Below are positions 28,211-36,136 of a stretch of 64,000 nucleotides of DNA, one piece after another. Each line of letters opens with the position of its first letter. Within the stretch, counting starts at the first letter, position 1. The position numbers and the translations under genes are program-made. Source of the stretch: Lewinella sp. LCG006 (GTDB lineage: Bacteria > Bacteroidota > Bacteroidia > Chitinophagales > Saprospiraceae); the NCBI RefSeq assembly GCF_040784935.1, contig NZ_CP160680.1, positions 6,801,802-6,865,801 of the forward strand, read 5' to 3'. Under the pieces are notes generated by a model that was not told the DNA's origin, ran no database searches, and saw nothing but the letters and a program-made list of their open reading frames with translations.

Positions 28211-28867
28211 CTAGTTTTTTATATACTTACAGTCAGTTTTTATATTCAACAAATCGATAAAATCATCAATTGAATTATCTACTTCAAGACCAATTTTAAA
28301 AGCTGCTTTATTAGTATAATACAAATCGTAATGAGTTAAAGGATGCCTATCCGGTATTCCTTTTTCTTTGGCAACATTAAATCCTTCTAAATCTTTATCA
28401 TATCTAATATATCCATCTTCAAAAAGCATCAACTCCTTCAGAAAACTCCAAAGCTCTTCACTTTCTAGACTATTAGAACTTTCAAAAATAGAATCAGCAA
28501 AACCTAAAACACAATCATCATTAAAGCTATCACAGTTAATAGCTGATTTCGTTTTTGAAATCAGATAAGCATCAACATTAATATTATTTAAGTAATGAAA
28601 ATAAATCCTACCACCTTCCTCGTACAAATTAAATGGAAACACAATTGAATAATATTTATTTTTCGAGCTAAAAAACAATCTACTCATCTTATCAATAACA
28701 AGTTTTATTTCATCATTTGAATTATTTTCACCAATATGAGGATTCGACAAAATATACCTACTGGCCTCTAAAAGGATATTAATAATTTGAATTTTAGACT
28801 TGATTCTCTCTTTAGGAAAAAAGAGATCTTTTGAATAAGAGTCAATTTTATATACAAAAACTTTCAT
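28211..28867 (-). CDS. Unknown AT-rich partner of the SF1 helicase
   Basis: 218 residues, not recognised. It is acidic and rich in Asn, Ile, Asp and Ser with no transmembrane helix or signal. The only hints are a helical N-terminus (IKSKIQIINILLEASRYIL) and DRHPLTHYDLYYTNKAAFKI in the C-terminal third, followed by KIGLEVDNSIDDFIDLL. Its ATG shares one base with the helicase stop codon (28867), so the two are translationally coupled and probably act together. Base composition is markedly more AT-rich than the flanking genes. A possible effector or accessory subunit of a defence-type system, by context only. Confidence 0.6.
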   Translation of the reverse strand: MKVFVYKIDSYSKDLFFPKERIKSKIQIINILLEASRYILSNPHIGENNSNDEIKLVIDKMSRLFFSSKNKYYSIVFPFNLYEEGGRIYFHYLNNINVDAYLISKTKSAINCDSFNDDCVLGFADSIFESSNSLESEELWSFLKELMLFEDGYIRYDKDLEGFNVAKEKGIPDRHPLTHYDLYYTNKAAFKIGLEVDNSIDDFIDLLNIKTDCKYIKN

Positions 28868-30858
28868 TAGCTATAAAATTCTTTATTTGCGACGATAAAT
28901 TTAACAGTTTTATCTTTATCAAATTCCTCGATATCTGTCTGAATAATAGCTTTCTCTAATTTTGACCTAAATCTATTATCAATTTCTAACTCATTAAAAA
29001 TTTCGTTTAAAAATTCTTTATAAGATATATTTTTCTTATTCTGTATTCTCACCAACGTACTTTTTATAGCAATTTTTTCCTCTTCAGAAGGCTCGCTTGT
29101 CCTGATTAAATTTTCGTCATTTATAACTTTCAAACCACTTATTAATGCAGATAACCCTATTTCATTTTGAACCAATAAGTATGACTGAATAAACGACCTT
29201 GTAAGCATTGTGTATAATATATTCCTATATCTATATGTGTTTTTTATACCGGCTGTTATACAAATAACAAATGGAAATTCAAGACCCTTCACATTGTTTG
29301 TATTCGTAATGTAAACTGCATTTTTTGTCTTCGACTTTGTTTCTATAGCTCTATTTACGTTCCACTCCAACTGACTTCTTATGGAGTAACAAAGGCTATC
29401 TATATATTCATAAATAGCCTTATTCCTATCAAGAATAATAATTGCAATATCTTCTGGCATTACAGTTTTGTGTCTTTCCTTAATTGATTTAAGTATTTTT
29501 ATAACATCAATAATTTTAGTTGAGTTTTCAATAACAGTACTTTCGAAATCTTCAAGCATTAGACCCTCAAATCTCCTAATTGGCTCTCTTGATAATTCTA
29601 CTTGGTTATTACCAATTCTGTTAACATTATATCCTATTGCCTTCCAATACAAGTCTTCAAACCAATTGAGTTTTTCCTTCTCAAATAATCCTAGTCCGAT
29701 TGAATGAGCAAACATCAGAGTTCTTGGATCAGTCCTATAACACCTATTTAAAATAACATCAACTTCAAGTTCTGTTTCTAGAGTATTTTCAAAAATATCT
29801 TGAAAAATATCTCCAGCAATATAAATTTTTTTTCTAGTTATTTTATCGCATAAATCAAAAAAAACTTTTGGGAAATCTTGCCTTTCGTCAATAAGAATAT
29901 AGTCAAATGCAAATTCAAAATCCTCATCATCTATTCCATTAATATATTCAAGAGCTAAAGTAAAAATTTTATTATAATTAGTAGAAAAGTCATAACCAAG
30001 GAATGGAAAATTATAAAAACTAGCAATATAACTATAAAGCCCCGAATTCGAGTCTTTACCAGAACCCCAAGCCCTATTGACCCAAAGTTTTGAGTTCCAT
30101 TCAATTTGTTTCTCAACTCTCATAAAATTAAAGAAAGAAGGTATTCTTGATCTAAGTGTATTTGCTAATGCAATATTATGGCAAGTGAAGAAAATTTTCG
30201 GTTCTTCTTCAAGAACATAAAGCTCTTTCAGCTTATGAAGTAGTAACTCTGTTTTTCCTGTTCCAGAAAGACCTTGTATGGAAACTGTTTTATTTGTAAA
30301 TTTTTGATAAATGAATCTGGTTTGATCTCCATCAAACAGAATTATATTTTGCTTAACTTTATCTAAAAGGGTTTCAGGTTCTTTTACACCAACTTTAGTG
30401 ATGTCATTAATACTTCCAACTATCAACGAAATCAATAATTCTCCAACACGTTGGTTATCATCATCTAAGTTGTTTTCTCTAAATATTTGCTCTATAGTTA
30501 AATTATTATTAGGAGTTATCCTATTTATAATTTCACTTTTCCATTCCCTAGGTCTTCCAATATATTCTTTATAAGAATACTTATCAGATATATAACTTAA
30601 GTCTTCTATAAAATCTTCGCAATATTCATTAAACAACGGTGCATTATCAATTAAATCTAGAAATAAAATCCTATACCCAGGCGAAAGAATTACTATAACA
30701 TTTTCTTCATAAGAATAAGAATATTTCTCTCCAAGAGGTGCTGAAATTAAATAAACCTGCTGCTCCGTATTTTGTTCAGCGTAGTTTTTTATTTTTCTAA
30801 TCCAGTCTTTGTTTACGTCATTTTCTTCTATATGACTATAGAATAAGCTATTGTCCAT
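28867..30858 (-). CDS. Superfamily 1 (UvrD/Rep-type) ATPase/helicase in an AT-rich island
   Basis: 663 residues from the ATG at 30856-30858. A roughly 180-residue N-terminal domain of unknown fold includes YSYKEYIGRPREWKSEI. Walker A is GLSGTGKTELL (196-206), Walker B region FDYILIDERQDFP, an arginine-bearing motif VILNRCYRTDPRTL, and late motifs NVKGLEFPFV and LYTMLTRSFIQSYLLV. This is the SF1A helicase fold, with UvrD-like motifs V and VI at the C-terminus. The gene is strikingly AT-rich against its neighbours and is coupled to a small unknown gene. That is typical of horizontally acquired, phage-defence-like pairs. DNA or RNA preference is not visible. Confidence 0.8.
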   Translation of the reverse strand: MDNSLFYSHIEENDVNKDWIRKIKNYAEQNTEQQVYLISAPLGEKYSYSYEENVIVILSPGYRILFLDLIDNAPLFNEYCEDFIEDLSYISDKYSYKEYIGRPREWKSEIINRITPNNNLTIEQIFRENNLDDDNQRVGELLISLIVGSINDITKVGVKEPETLLDKVKQNIILFDGDQTRFIYQKFTNKTVSIQGLSGTGKTELLLHKLKELYVLEEEPKIFFTCHNIALANTLRSRIPSFFNFMRVEKQIEWNSKLWVNRAWGSGKDSNSGLYSYIASFYNFPFLGYDFSTNYNKIFTLALEYINGIDDEDFEFAFDYILIDERQDFPKVFFDLCDKITRKKIYIAGDIFQDIFENTLETELEVDVILNRCYRTDPRTLMFAHSIGLGLFEKEKLNWFEDLYWKAIGYNVNRIGNNQVELSREPIRRFEGLMLEDFESTVIENSTKIIDVIKILKSIKERHKTVMPEDIAIIILDRNKAIYEYIDSLCYSIRSQLEWNVNRAIETKSKTKNAVYITNTNNVKGLEFPFVICITAGIKNTYRYRNILYTMLTRSFIQSYLLVQNEIGLSALISGLKVINDENLIRTSEPSEEEKIAIKSTLVRIQNKKNISYKEFLNEIFNELEIDNRFRSKLEKAIIQTDIEEFDKDKTVKFIVANKEFYS

Positions 30859-31156
30859 GTTCAATATTTAATAAGATAAATATAGTTATTTTACACCTAT
30901 TGGAGGTAACAAAACTTCTACACATCTTAAAATTCACCCTATTATACTCATCTTCGACCAAGTAAGCCTAATGAAATCACCTTGGAATTACTTCTAAGAG
31001 ATGCTTTCATGACCCATAAAAACCTCTCCAGCGGCCAAACGAGGTTAAATATTAGAGGTCTTTCTGCCACGAATTAGTTAAACCTAAGATAAAGTCAAAC
31101 ATAATTAAATCACTCCCTCCCCCGTTCGGTGTCGGTTGTACCTACGTCACTACTTC
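30859..31156. other. Gene-free spacer upstream of the helicase island
   Basis: About 300 bp with no convincing reading frame. Composition changes from AT-rich near 30.9 kb to average by 31.1 kb, marking the island edge. It is A/T-rich just upstream of the helicase start, but I see no clear TAnnTTTG box. No tRNA, IS end or obvious direct repeat was found at the boundary. Confidence 0.5.
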
Positions 31157-31969
31157 TCAAAAAAAACCACCCCTCTCCCATTCCCCATACCAAACAGGCC
31201 AAATCTCAGCTAATCCCTCCGTGGTATACCCGTATTTTTGGGAAAGCGATCGAAAAGCTTGTGACAAGGCTTGTCCATCCGCCAAGGCTTGCAACAACAG
31301 ATACTGTTCCCGATGTAGGTCAAAGAAGGCCAGCTTGTAATCACGGCGCAAGATGGCATAGTAACTTGGTGCAGGACCAGGAAACTCAGGCTCTTCGCCT
31401 TTGGCCACCGACTGGTAAAACCAGCGCACCGGAAACTTGGTCGCCAGGAGGCGTAAGCCAGGAACGAGAGCCAGTTGTTCTGGCGACGTAGCCATGGTAG
31501 CCAGCGGACCATTGTGGTCCACATCGGCATTAAACAGGTGGTTGATTAGCCATTCAAAGCGGGCGAGTTCGATCATGAAGTCAGGCCAATCTTCTTTAAT
31601 AGGTTCATCGCGATCGGGGCGGGTTTCCTCCAGGTAGGTCATGAAGCGATCGCCGAGGTTGGCGAGGCTGTAGCTTTCGGAGGGGTATTTGCGGAGGTAT
31701 TCGTCGGCGAAAGCCTGGAACAATTCCGGGCTTAGCGCATATTCCAAGGCCGTAAACTGTTTCGCCAGACAGTCGCGCAAGCGGGCGGTATAACCATGTT
31801 GATAAATCGCCAGATGTTGTTTCGCGGCCAGGCGTTTGGAAGGCTTGAAAACTTCCTCAATGGAGACACTCCTCCCCTCTCCTACTTTCGCAGCATCATA
31901 ACCTGGATGAAGTAACATCTTCAACATCCACTGTTGGAAATCCGCTAAGGAGAGTGCTGGTTTATCCAC
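31157..31969 (-). CDS. BufC/HvfC-type partner protein of the MNIO enzyme (DUF2063 N-terminal domain)
   Basis: 270 residues from a GTG at 31967-31969, three bases after the MNIO stop codon. The N-terminal part has the DUF2063 (HvfC/BufC) pattern: LADFQQWMLKMLLHP, then LAIYQHGYTARLRDCLAKQF with FTALEYALSPELFQAFADEY and a later FMIELARFEWLINHLF. The C-terminal half is beta-rich (ALVPGLRLLATKFPVRWFYQ) and ends in a small winged-helix-like stretch (ADGQALSQAFRSLSQKYG). In known MNIO systems this partner binds the precursor peptide and is needed for modification by the MNIO enzyme. It is last in the operon. Confidence 0.85.
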   Translation of the reverse strand: MDKPALSLADFQQWMLKMLLHPGYDAAKVGEGRSVSIEEVFKPSKRLAAKQHLAIYQHGYTARLRDCLAKQFTALEYALSPELFQAFADEYLRKYPSESYSLANLGDRFMTYLEETRPDRDEPIKEDWPDFMIELARFEWLINHLFNADVDHNGPLATMATSPEQLALVPGLRLLATKFPVRWFYQSVAKGEEPEFPGPAPSYYAILRRDYKLAFFDLHREQYLLLQALADGQALSQAFRSLSQKYGYTTEGLAEIWPVWYGEWERGGFF

Positions 31970-31972
31970 TTT

Positions 31973-32902
31973 TTAAGCTTCTTTCATTACGTTGGTCATC
32001 AGAAAATCTACCGGATTGGAAACCTCGGCAGCGTGATCAGGTGCTTCTTCCGGCATTTGTAGCTCGGGAAGGGACGATGACATGAAATTTTTGGCTTTCA
32101 TCAATTCTTCATAATACTCTTCGAAAGGAGGAATATTGCCATCCCATTCCAACAGCGTGGAGGTACCACCCGTTTTCTGCCAGGCGAGCTGAAACAACTG
32201 CCAGACATTGTGAGTGACGGCTCGGTCGTGGGTATCTATAATGTAACTCCCGCAGTGCTGGTGCCCAGCCAGGTGCATCTGTACGATGCGCTCGTGAGGG
32301 AGCTGTTCGATATAATGAACGGGGTCAAAATCATTGTTAAAAGCGGAGACGTAAACGTTGTTCACATCAAGGAGTAAGCCACAATTGGTTTCCTCGGCCA
32401 TTGCCCGCAGGAAGGCCCATTCCGGCATGGTAGAATGCTGAAAGCTGGCGTAGGTGCTCGGGTTTTCTAATACCAGCGGTCGCTCCAAATAATCTTGAAC
32501 AATCCGGATGCGTTCGCAGACATGAGCCAAAGACGCTTCGTTGAGCGGCAGCGGCAGTAAATCATGGGAGTTGATAGATAAAACACCCGTCCAACACAAG
32601 TGATCACTCACCCAAACGGGCTGCACCTCTTCGGCGAGGGTCTTCAGGCTTTTAAGGTAGGTAAAATCCAGCGGGTCCGTACTTCCGATAGACATCGACA
32701 CGCCGTGCATTACTACCGGATAGCGCTCGACAATCTGCTTCAATAAATAGCGAGGTCGACCATAAGCATCCATGAAATTTTCGGAGATCACCTCAAACCA
32801 ATCCACCTCCGGCGCGTGCTCCAGAATATGATCAAAATGCTTATTGCGCAAGCCCAGGCCGAGGCCGAGGTCTGGTAGTTGAAGGAGGTTAGTACTCATC
32901 AT
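31973..32902 (-). CDS. MNIO-family (DUF692) multinuclear iron oxidative enzyme, BufB/HvfB-like
   Basis: About 309 residues; the start is one of two adjacent ATGs (32900-32902 or 32897-32899), overlapping the upstream stop as ATGA. TIM-barrel DUF692 hallmarks with metal-ligand segments: [72 protein letters not shown] and LLEWDGNIP. This family binds two or three irons and oxidatively modifies cysteine or asparagine residues of ribosomally made peptides, forming thiooxazoles and related metal-binding groups. The obvious substrate is the cysteine-repeat protein encoded just upstream. Confidence 0.93.
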
Positions 32903-33540
32903 CCCTTTTTCACACAAGCCTCATCCGAATAGTGAGCCTTACTACTATTTTTCATAAAAGCTTCTCTTTTGGCTTTCTTCTCGGCATCCCTCACCTTAGG
33001 ATCAAAGGCAAAAGAACAATAATGCGAACCACTTTGGCCGCAAGACTCGTAATGGTATTGCCCAATCTTTTCGGCAAACTCGGCGGTAGGACCGTAAGCC
33101 TGCCTTGGTGGTGGTGAGCCATATTTTTTCCCGGCTTTATTCATTCGCTCTTCAAAGCGTTTTCTGGCCAGTTGCCATACGCTCAGGCCTTGGTTGGGCC
33201 CATCCACAAAATAGCGGGTAGCCAGGATTGGCGAACCGCAACTCCCTTGGTATTTGCAATCGTTTTCGCCAGGATGGCAAAACTCGGGTGCCGTACCAAA
33301 CAAGCCGCAGCCGCCCTGCCCACGACAGTCATTGACGGTATGGCAAGCATGGACGATCGTGGCACACAAGCCCATGCCAGCACAATCGTTTTGCTTAGTA
33401 AACCCTTGGTTCTTGCAGGAATTGAGGCCCATGCAAACGTGCAGTTCCGGACCTACCGGACTAGGAATATCCGTGGTTACTGCCAATTGACGCTTATTGG
33501 GCTCAGGTGCTATGGTGTTTTTTTTATAGGAATGATCCAT
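32899..33540 (-). CDS. Cysteine-repeat protein, putative substrate of the MNIO enzyme
   Basis: 213 residues with 13 cysteines. Residues about 35-105 contain a recurring motif, N(S/D)CxxxG with a following Cys in three copies: [25 protein letters not shown] and NDCKYQGSC, with VHACHTV and EFCHPGE between them. A spacer follows with [14 protein letters not shown], then [14 protein letters not shown] and a final DEACVKKG. No signal peptide or transmembrane helix is seen, unlike classical bufferin precursors, which are exported. The stop overlaps the MNIO start (ATGA). The spaced NxCxxxG cysteines resemble MNIO-modified copper-binding peptides. The modification itself is inference. Confidence 0.8.
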
Positions 33541-33574
33541 CTTGGTAAAATGATTGACGGGTTATAGGAAAGGG

Positions 33575-35119
33575 TTAAGCATGAGCGGTAGGAAATGGAT
33601 TTCCTTTTATTCCCAGATCTTTATCAATGTCTTTGACACTGTAATCAAGACCAACATCAGGTAAAGCCATATAAGCGACACTCTTTTCATTGCCTTTGCT
33701 GAGCCACCCTTCTACCGTCCATACCTTGGAAAGCTGATCAGCCAGTTCAATGATTTGGGCCTTGGGCCGCATATTGGGCTTTGCCGCAAAGTCGTAGAAC
33801 TCGAAAGTCAGTGCGGCCGAATACATTTTGCCTTTTTTATGGTAAAGCAAGTTCGAAATATTGCCTCCAAAATGACTTAGCAGCCAAATCATGGCCTTGT
33901 GTACGCCGTACATAAAGAGCTGAAACTGCGTCTTGGTGCTTTTTGTCCGATAGCAGGTTTCAATCATCAAAAGGATGTAGGTAAAGATGGCATTTCCCAA
34001 TTCAGATTCCAGCTTTAGTGCAGCCACCGCATTATCGCCCTGCTTGGGGTCTTTGAAGCTGGGTTTGGCATTAGGGCTATCGTAATCGGCCTGCTTGGGG
34101 TCAAGATCCTGGTTGTGAACAAAGAGGGAGAAAAAGTCGAGGCCATAGCCTGCCAGCATCTCCTGGTAATAATACCCCAAACTATACGCTTCATAAAACT
34201 TATCGAAGTGGGCCAGCTCCTTACCACTTGGGGCATCGGCATCTTCCTTATCCATGATGACCTTACCGTCTTTTACGGGAAGCGGGATGGGCATGCCCTT
34301 GTCATCCAGGTGTAGCTTATTGCCATCTTCATGGTTGCCTTCGCCCTGTTCTACGATAATTCCCAATGCTTTCAATGCAGTGTTGCTGTCCACCACTTCC
34401 ACCAGTCCGCCGCTATCATCTTGATTGACGAAATGAGGATTGTGTTCTTTATCGTAATAGACCGTATTGATAGAATTGGAAGAATAGACGCCCATTCGCG
34501 GATTGGGGGTCAGCTGCAAGCGGTCTCCTAAATCATAAGCACCCGCAAAATGATCGTTGATACAGCCTTCAATCATTTCGTAAAACTGCCCGATGGTTTG
34601 ATAATCAATAGCCCTTTCTTCGATCAGTAGGGAGGGATTTTCAAAAGCATTGGGGCTTTCTATCTTTAGGAAGGTTGCCAATTGTCTCAGCGAAAGCGGC
34701 CCCAGGTTAATCGGAAATTCAGGATCGTGACCATCCAACTGAGTAGGGAATTTAAAACCCTCAGATGCGGCAATACCCATCAAGTCCGGCGGCAATCCAC
34801 AGATGGCTTGCTTGACGTTGGAAGCCAGTGCCAAATGCAGCATTTCCTCAATCAATACGCCCATGATCAGCGCTGCCGTTTTGTTGGCATAGATCATGAT
34901 TTCCAGCGTCAGGTCTTGCGCTTGTTTCACCTTGCCGGGCATACGCTCCAGCAGGGTCTTGTACAGTGTTTGCTGATCTGGCAGCCGCTGGATAGAATAA
35001 TACGTAGAAAGGTAAGTAGGGATGGTTGCCAATTCCAAGGTGATGGCTTGCTCCATGGCCTCAGCAAAATTTTCCGGCGTTACGACCGTCGGAATACTAA
35101 ACAGTTTCTTTTTAGGCAT
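33575..35119 (-). CDS. Ferritin-like di-iron protein (VioB/iminophenyl-pyruvate dimer synthase-type domain)
   Basis: 514 residues. The N-terminal half is the ferritin-like domain found in VioB/RebD and in many free-standing proteins: AMEQAITLELATIPTYLSTY and GVLIEEMLHLALASNVKQAI supply the Glu and EExxH ligands for two irons. The middle is variable and acidic (NHEDGNKLHLDDKGMPIPL). The C-terminal half has further helices (LGNAIFTYILLMIETCYRTK, and YGVHKAMIWLLSHFGGNISN). It is first in a four-gene operon behind a well-formed promoter, 34 bp before the cysteine-repeat gene. It might oxidise the same substrate or supply oxidised intermediates or iron to the MNIO enzyme. That role is inference. 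Confidence 0.82.
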   Translation of the reverse strand: MPKKKLFSIPTVVTPENFAEAMEQAITLELATIPTYLSTYYSIQRLPDQQTLYKTLLERMPGKVKQAQDLTLEIMIYANKTAALIMGVLIEEMLHLALASNVKQAICGLPPDLMGIAASEGFKFPTQLDGHDPEFPINLGPLSLRQLATFLKIESPNAFENPSLLIEERAIDYQTIGQFYEMIEGCINDHFAGAYDLGDRLQLTPNPRMGVYSSNSINTVYYDKEHNPHFVNQDDSGGLVEVVDSNTALKALGIIVEQGEGNHEDGNKLHLDDKGMPIPLPVKDGKVIMDKEDADAPSGKELAHFDKFYEAYSLGYYYQEMLAGYGLDFFSLFVHNQDLDPKQADYDSPNAKPSFKDPKQGDNAVAALKLESELGNAIFTYILLMIETCYRTKSTKTQFQLFMYGVHKAMIWLLSHFGGNISNLLYHKKGKMYSAALTFEFYDFAAKPNMRPKAQIIELADQLSKVWTVEGWLSKGNEKSVAYMALPDVGLDYSVKDIDKDLGIKGNPFPTAHA

Positions 35120-35153
35120 GATATGGGTAGGTAGGTTTTCGAAAGGTGTGATT

Positions 35154-35185
35154 TAAAAGTAGTTATTCTTACATCCAAAACCAAA
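35154..35185 (-). promoter_or_regulatory. Promoter of the ferritin-like/MNIO operon
   Basis: On the minus strand, TTTG (35182-35185), a 20-bp spacer, and TACTTTTA (35154-35161) fit TTTG-N20-TAnnTTTG with one mismatch in the last base. Transcription would start near 35147, about 28 bp before the ATG of the ferritin-like gene. Confidence 0.6.
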
Positions 35186-35296
35186 TACACCTATACTATC
35201 TTTTCGCAGTTCAAGTAGTGTAAACAAGAGATCCGTACCATGAGGATAGGAACATCTCTCCTCAAGGAATCAACCGTAGCCCTAGAAATATCTCAC

Positions 35297-36136
35297 CTAA
35301 TTGCCATCCTTCGTACTTTTTTGGTGCGTATTGATCTTTTCTACAGCATCTTTAGTGAGTACCAAGAGGGAATTGGTCTCACAATTCCACAAGTTCAGGT
35401 AATCAGCTGAGACCACACTGTGGGTTTTCCAACCTGCGAATTTTGCGTAAAGCATCAAAGTACAGATATCCGTAGGAGTGATAAACGGTCCAGTTTCTTT
35501 ATTGTGCGTGTGCATTGTTCCCATTATTTCTTGGTCTGAATCTCCGTACGGTATAGAAATAATGTTGTTATGAAGTTTTTCGCGCCTTTTAACTGTATTG
35601 TTGTTGCGCATCGTTAATAAATAGTCATTACCCAAAACAACCACACCATTTTTCTGTGGGCCAGTAAGCACGTAAACTTTCTTTTCACCCTGGCTGATTA
35701 AAGGAATCAAATTCAAATTAGTATTTTCATACACTTTGAAAAGCGTATCGGTACCCATTAAGTCTAAGGCATTGCGGCGCATTTCGTAGAGGTCGTGTTC
35801 CTTGGCAGAAAAATCGCGCTCTTGTAAATTAACATCTGCAGTAGCTAAATCGTAAGTAACATCAAATGTAATGGTCCCGATCACTCCATGGTTATCCGCT
35901 TTTGAAAAGAATACACATCTCGCCAAATCGCCATCGACGTAAGAAAAATAGCCTCCAATATTACCCCGATTTGGATAAGCTTCTAAAAATAGATCAGTGC
36001 CATACCATGATGCCATTTCACAACGATAAAGTAACTTCCCTTCTTCGACAATAGGATCAGTTTGCTTCGAAAATTTTGATTGGGCAGATACCTCCAAAAG
36101 GGTTACCGTTGCAAGGAAAAAAAGTAGCCATTTCAT
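35297..36136 (-). CDS. Secreted protein with a JAMM/MPN-like HxH...TxxD motif
   Basis: 279 residues. MKWLLFFLATVTLLEVSAQS is a signal peptide. The first 140 residues are beta-rich and unassigned. From about residue 160 the chain looks like a JAB/MPN fold: KNGVVVLGNDYLLTMRNNN, then GTMHTHNKETGPFITPTDIC, which has HTH followed by TPTD twelve residues later, close to the zinc-peptidase JAMM signature HxHPx6SxxD. It ends TNSLLVLTKDAVEKI. If real, this is an exported isopeptidase-like metalloprotease. The spacing and the Thr in place of Ser make the call tentative. It is not obviously in an operon. Confidence 0.5.
   Translation of the reverse strand: MKWLLFFLATVTLLEVSAQSKFSKQTDPIVEEGKLLYRCEMASWYGTDLFLEAYPNRGNIGGYFSYVDGDLARCVFFSKADNHGVIGTITFDVTYDLATADVNLQERDFSAKEHDLYEMRRNALDLMGTDTLFKVYENTNLNLIPLISQGEKKVYVLTGPQKNGVVVLGNDYLLTMRNNNTVKRREKLHNNIISIPYGDSDQEIMGTMHTHNKETGPFITPTDICTLMLYAKFAGWKTHSVVSADYLNLWNCETNSLLVLTKDAVEKINTHQKSTKDGN

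Follow-up and report, generated by a model that had tools for sequence, protein, structure and literature searches.

A locus of Lewinella sp. LCG006 was examined in which genes for a ferritin-like protein, a Cys-rich protein, an MNIO (DUF692) enzyme and a DUF2063 protein lie side by side. The genome comprises 7.5 Mb on a single contig (NZ_CP160680.1), and the 64,000-nucleotide stretch of it that was analyzed is called the window. The genes are four consecutive open reading frames (ORFs) on the minus strand in the order ferritin-like, Cys-rich, MNIO and DUF2063, with gaps of 34, -4 and 3 bp (Table 1). Their families and spacing, judged from ORF coordinates and Pfam scores, are those given in an earlier note on this DNA. 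The listed ORF of the MNIO begins with a TTG at 32917. An in-frame ATG at 32902 is the likelier start, and it overlaps the stop codon of the upstream gene as ATGA.

Table 1. Coordinates of the four genes, and of the Cys core, in the window
Feature	Position	Strand	Properties
Ferritin-like protein	33575-35119	-	514 aa; PF12902 111.9 bits, 5e-32
Cys-rich protein, proposed MNIO substrate	32899-33540	-	213 aa, 13 Cys
BufA2-like core, residues 36-101 of the Cys protein	33238-33435	-	six invariant Cys; NF050166 match
MNIO (DUF692), BufB type	31973-32917	-	PF05114 and NF050167
DUF2063 partner (BufC/HvfC-like, PME-type 1)	31157-31969	-	270 aa; PF09836

Twenty-one distinct loci were found that combine a ferritin-like domain, a Cys domain, an MNIO and a DUF2063 protein (one Lewinella locus, listed as both G002 and L003, was counted once). 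Their recurrence agrees with the earlier note, which had treated the four as one system, and chance neighborhood was set aside because all four parts are common to the 21 loci. The genes are separate in 10/21 loci (the window, L003, L004 and L033-L039). In the other 11 the ferritin-like and Cys domains are joined in one ORF (L040, L041, L074-L076, L107-L111 and L131). Nineteen loci belong to the class of the window and L131 to another class of the phylum. L004 comes from a Roseivirga metagenome-assembled genome.

The Cys protein is rare and patchy when it is used as the query. It was detected in 2/40 genomes of near relatives, the window genome included, in 6/296 genomes of the phylum, one of which supplied the bufferin-like protein of L043, and in 9/395 genomes of the class. 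One match in the class sample (G353) spans four stops, has neither an MNIO nor a ferritin gene beside it, and was dropped. A search of genome contigs gave two loci, and no match was found among plasmid records. Three divergent fused loci in the 395-genome sample escaped the Cys protein query. Because many loci were found with a Cys or ferritin query, the count is biased, and a search with the MNIO is the fairer test. The BufB model NF050167 matched in 38 of the 395 class genomes. Eleven matches were over the cut-off (351-363 bits; the next scored 286), and 11/11 of these MNIOs sit in a ferritin/Cys cluster. Family searches with MNIO alignments added five further high scorers, 5/5 in such a cluster, and one more search of this kind returned only known loci. 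Nine loci with lower-scoring MNIOs (L077-L083, L112 and L113), taken from 7/27 such genomes of the class sample and 2/4 from the alignment searches, were without a match to either the ferritin or the Cys gene at E 1e-3. In G230 (L043) a bufferin-like gene encoding a hydrophobic N-terminus lies beside an MNIO without a ferritin gene. The score of this MNIO is high by construction because it is a row of alignment A3.

Ten PF12902 genes without a Cys domain served as controls (L119-L124, L084, L085, L132 and L133). An MNIO was found in the flanking DNA of 0/10, which indicates that the Cys domain and the MNIO go together and that the ferritin domain alone brings no MNIO. The second PF12902 gene of the window genome (L119; G000:C1:4853456-4856596, 4457-7597 in L119) is 57 bp from a gene identified by profile as LodA, of the lysine epsilon-oxidase family. 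PF12902 genes also adjoin lodA-like genes in fungi (PMC4417212). On a Rhizobium plasmid (L085) the PF12902 gene adjoins an annotated GMC oxidoreductase, and in L121 and L122 it adjoins a flavoprotein similar by eye to that of L085. A small gene of 141-161 aa is an additional neighbor in these three loci. In L120, L133, L084 and L124 PF12902 is beside, or fused to, a protein or domain of ~650 aa with an N-terminus like MSYLxxLRLxFAGxFQAxPSTVNND. This protein, which we take to be VioB-N-like, is common to Bacteroidota and a cyanobacterial plasmid.

The ferritin-like protein of the window is a member of PF12902 (111.9 bits against a Pfam cut-off of 22.3). Six residues, E29, E92, H95, E154, E260 and H304, are invariant in 21/21 linked and 10/10 unlinked PF12902 proteins (31/31), the latter being the controls, which have the same residues but neither MNIO nor Cys domain. 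These residues would fit the ligand pattern expected of a di-iron site, as the earlier note had proposed for the protein. An AlphaFold model of the protein had a mean confidence (pLDDT) of 76.9 and a predicted TM-score (pTM) of 0.83. Using Foldseek, the only match to the model below E 0.001 was 3hl1 (CC_0557), at E 5.9e-4. Iron storage was set aside because this single fold match is not a classical ferritin. Membership in VioB was also set aside, with 12.5 bits for TIGR04492 against a cut-off of 1250. CC_0557, with which the fold is shared, the C-terminal part of VioB and the LodA-linked protein of the window genome all belong to PF12902 like the window protein.

The Cys protein of the window is 93% identical to its counterpart in Lewinella cohaerens DSM 23179. 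It contains the four N(S/D)CxxxG units that had been described (NSCKNQG, NDCAGMG, NDCRGQG and NDCKYQG). No Pfam family matched at E 1, and BufA2 (NF050166) was the only NCBIfam match, over residues 51-76, with 27.6 bits against a cut-off of 60. The bufferin-like protein of L043 likewise falls under that cut-off (42.9 bits). Twenty loci were aligned, L131 having been found later and left out. C36, C66, C72, C78, C95 and C101 are invariant in 20/20, and C42, C53 and C59 are present in 12/20, 17/20 and 12/20, respectively. The consensus of the core, HxCxxxNxC[KRH]xxGGCG ... NxCxxxG[GS]CxxPI, resembles the L043 bufferin-like protein, and single loci deviate from it outside the Cys positions. A hydrophobic N-terminus was found in 0/10 of the separate Cys proteins. 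Their highest 11-residue mean hydropathy within the first 60 residues was 0.38-1.37, versus 2.48 for L043. They were therefore scored as lacking a signal peptide, a call that is based on hydropathy only and not on a signal peptide predictor. Extra Cys occur in a low-complexity N-terminal stretch of the SNGCGSS type in the Cys proteins of L034, L037 and L039; the window protein has no such stretch.

The MNIO scored 366 bits with PF05114 (cut-off 25) and 360.7 bits with NF050167, above the BufB cut-off of 310. Residues H71, H106, E151, D184, N187, H215, D228, H230, E257 and D259 are invariant in 30/30 enzymes, and Asp105 is replaced by Glu in 9/10 unlinked enzymes. Asp259 is presumably catalytic, and the next position, 260, is occupied by G, S, N or A in 21/21 linked enzymes (G in the window) and by F or E in 10/10 unlinked enzymes. 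By alignment to 3bww, Asp259 and position 260 would correspond to Asp249 and Phe250 of FonB. FonB-D249A yields unmodified peptide, and Phe250, in place of which Cys-Lys enzymes have Asp, affects selectivity for flanking residues (PMC13097082). When 20 linked and 10 unlinked MNIOs were placed in a tree, the 10 unlinked enzymes grouped together with a support of 0.81. The DUF2063 partner of the window scored 61.9 bits with PF09836 (cut-off 27.2), and 21/21 partner proteins are over that cut-off. With NF050145 it scored 64.7 bits against a cut-off of 142 and is not assigned to HvfC.

Genes for an L-amino-acid-oxidase (LAAO)-type flavoprotein and a thiamine pyrophosphate (TPP)-decarboxylase-type protein were found together in 4/21 loci, in both the separate and the fused branches. 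They precede the ferritin-like gene in G205, G213 and G240, and the fused gene in G844, where a 371-aa ORF lies between. Compared with the PDB, the G205 oxidase matched the amine oxidoreductase 8t8a at E 2.6e-220, and the G205 decarboxylase matched indolepyruvate, phenylpyruvate and pyruvate decarboxylases at up to E 3e-70. A THAP4-barrel-like gene, under the Pfam cut-off, is upstream in G213 and G240 and has relatives close to the clusters of L004 and G621. Downstream of the operon the window encodes a 665-aa UvrD-type helicase protein (28867-30864), which is not beside the cluster in L003.

A single promoter had been proposed for the four genes. This was not upheld, since sigma-70-like sites did not exceed chance expectation: 31000-35350 has 7 on both strands, and shuffled sequence has 5.2 +/- 2.3. 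The site at 35224-35195, with 9/12 matches, is upstream of the ferritin-like gene. The motif TAnnTTTG, presumably the Bacteroidota -7 type promoter motif, is absent from the 178 bases 5' of that gene.

From gene content, co-conservation, fusions and conserved residues we infer a modification, a complex, a reaction and a type of substrate. Family and gene order make it very probable that the MNIO and its partner act on the Cys core. They would act in the cytoplasm, oxidizing cysteines of the BufA2-like core, and the most probable products, by analogy with relatives, would be 5-thiooxazole-type groups. The ferritin-like and Cys domains, judging from the fusions, very probably form one working unit. 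The matured Cys module would not be exported. It would work with the PF12902 di-iron protein, functioning as its metal- or redox-active module. A small molecule would then be oxidized by the di-iron enzyme; in some species this molecule would derive from an L-amino acid via the oxidase and a ketoacid decarboxylase. We felt that the chances are about even that the MNIO-matured module stays and works with the di-iron enzyme, serving it and not the reverse. This reading is preferred because amino-acid-oxidizing genes occur in four loci, some PF12902 genes lie beside oxidases and no export signal is evident from hydropathy. Fusion in about half of the loci suggests that the modified Cys serve the enzyme and are not part of a released copper-binding peptide. 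That MNIO oxidation makes the Cys module a permanent metal or redox center of a di-iron oxidase acting downstream of amino acid oxidation is a more specific proposal, to which we give somewhat less than an even chance.

The ferritin-like protein could instead be a second tailoring oxidase, the MNIO and the di-iron protein both modifying the Cys protein, which would itself be the end product. In that case the fusions would hold enzyme and substrate in cis, as in borosins. Co-conservation and fusion, the intact di-iron residues and the likeness of the Cys core to the precursor of a ribosomally synthesized and post-translationally modified peptide (RiPP) are all in keeping with this. We consider it less likely than the preferred reading, though still a serious rival. 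PF12902 occurs without an MNIO or Cys domain in 10/10 controls, some of them beside oxidase genes, and the LAAO- and decarboxylase-type genes that precede the cluster in four loci suggest a small-molecule substrate. The missing export signal also argues against it, as does the enzyme part of 350-560 aa that precedes the core in the fused forms aligned. A less probable alternative is a cytosolic bufferin-like buffer or store for metal (copper), whose ferritin-like part would handle iron or oxidize the bound metal. The BufA2-like core speaks for such a role; Buf1 improves growth when copper is in excess, and a similar effect was reported for Buf2 on preliminary data (PMC12452194). However, a copper family was matched by 0/17 flanking proteins in Pfam scans of part of the flanks, the upstream genes in four loci are metabolic, and a signal peptide is lacking by hydropathy.

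The earlier note had read the set as a variant copper- or metal-handling RiPP system. Its unit of MNIO, DUF2063, Cys and ferritin parts stands, being co-conserved in 21 loci. The assignment to copper or metal is weakened by the lack of a signal peptide by hydropathy, the score below the BufA2 cut-off, the fusion in 11/21 loci and the oxidase- and decarboxylase-type genes in four. A loose neighborhood would leave the Cys protein untouched, the ferritin-like gene only supplying iron or protecting from peroxide. MNIO enzymes need iron, as is established for the family, but the direct fusion in 11/21 loci is to the Cys domain and not to the MNIO, and we regard this explanation as very improbable.

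Several observations weigh against the preferred reading, in which the Cys module serves the di-iron enzyme. For 17/21 loci, including the window, no LAAO or TPP genes were detected in the flanks, which vary in length and in some cases stop at contig ends. The LAAO-like gene of the window genome (43% identity) is far from the cluster. Two of the 10 controls (L123 and L132) have no evident oxidase neighbor, and four control neighbors are named only by resemblance. His219 of the MNIO is replaced by Pro in 8/10 fused loci. AlphaFold modeled most helices in the ferritin part of the fusion L041 with confidence but left its Cys core disordered (pLDDT ~30-50), and the model shows no docking of this core on the di-iron domain. 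Fusion fits cis-acting tailoring equally well, and the chemistry is inferred throughout.

Among known systems, bufferin-2/captophorin clusters (bufA2-B-C) have the same gene order of precursor, MNIO and DUF2063 protein. The window MNIO is over the BufB equivalog cut-off, and an HxCxxxNxCxxxGGC core is common to the Cys protein and the L043 bufferin-like protein. The window-type set differs in that the Cys protein is under the BufA2 cut-off, lacks a signal peptide by hydropathy and carries a long C-terminal extension or a PF12902 fusion. In its MNIO the site matched to F250 of FonB is occupied by a small residue. Borosins and other enzyme-fused precursors resemble the fused loci in combining an enzyme and a modified segment in one chain; here, however, the MNIO, the predicted modifier of the Cys core, is a separate protein. 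The putative adjamnio-I precursors (122-293 aa, 8-21 Cys) also have no signal peptide and are encoded ahead of the MNIO (PMC12452194, Table 2). They are listed with PME-type 2 partners (PMC12452194), whereas window-type loci have PF09836 (type 1) in 21/21. With its overlap in size and Cys count, the adjamnio-I set may include some window-type Cys proteins. The word ferritin does not occur in the main text of this survey of MNIO clusters (PMC12452194). No paper describing the four-part combination was among those listed in searches of the open literature, judged mostly from titles and the opening lines of abstracts. Type 1 partner proteins have been linked with signal peptides in MNIO clusters (PMC12452194), and the window and the 20 related loci are an exception to that link, with the signal call made by hydropathy.

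In searches with MNIO queries 16/16 high-scoring MNIOs were tied to a predicted di-iron enzyme, and this enzyme and the probable MNIO substrate are often one chain. The known role of MNIO enzymes is to make peptide products, for the most part metallophores. If the reading as a protein-bound cofactor is true, the MNIO and DUF2063 proteins would be an enzyme maturation pair, comparable to the LodB- and MauG-type enzymes that mature quinone cofactors, and not the makers of a released natural product. The natural fusions provide a simple in-cis system for asking whether MNIOs mature enzymes.

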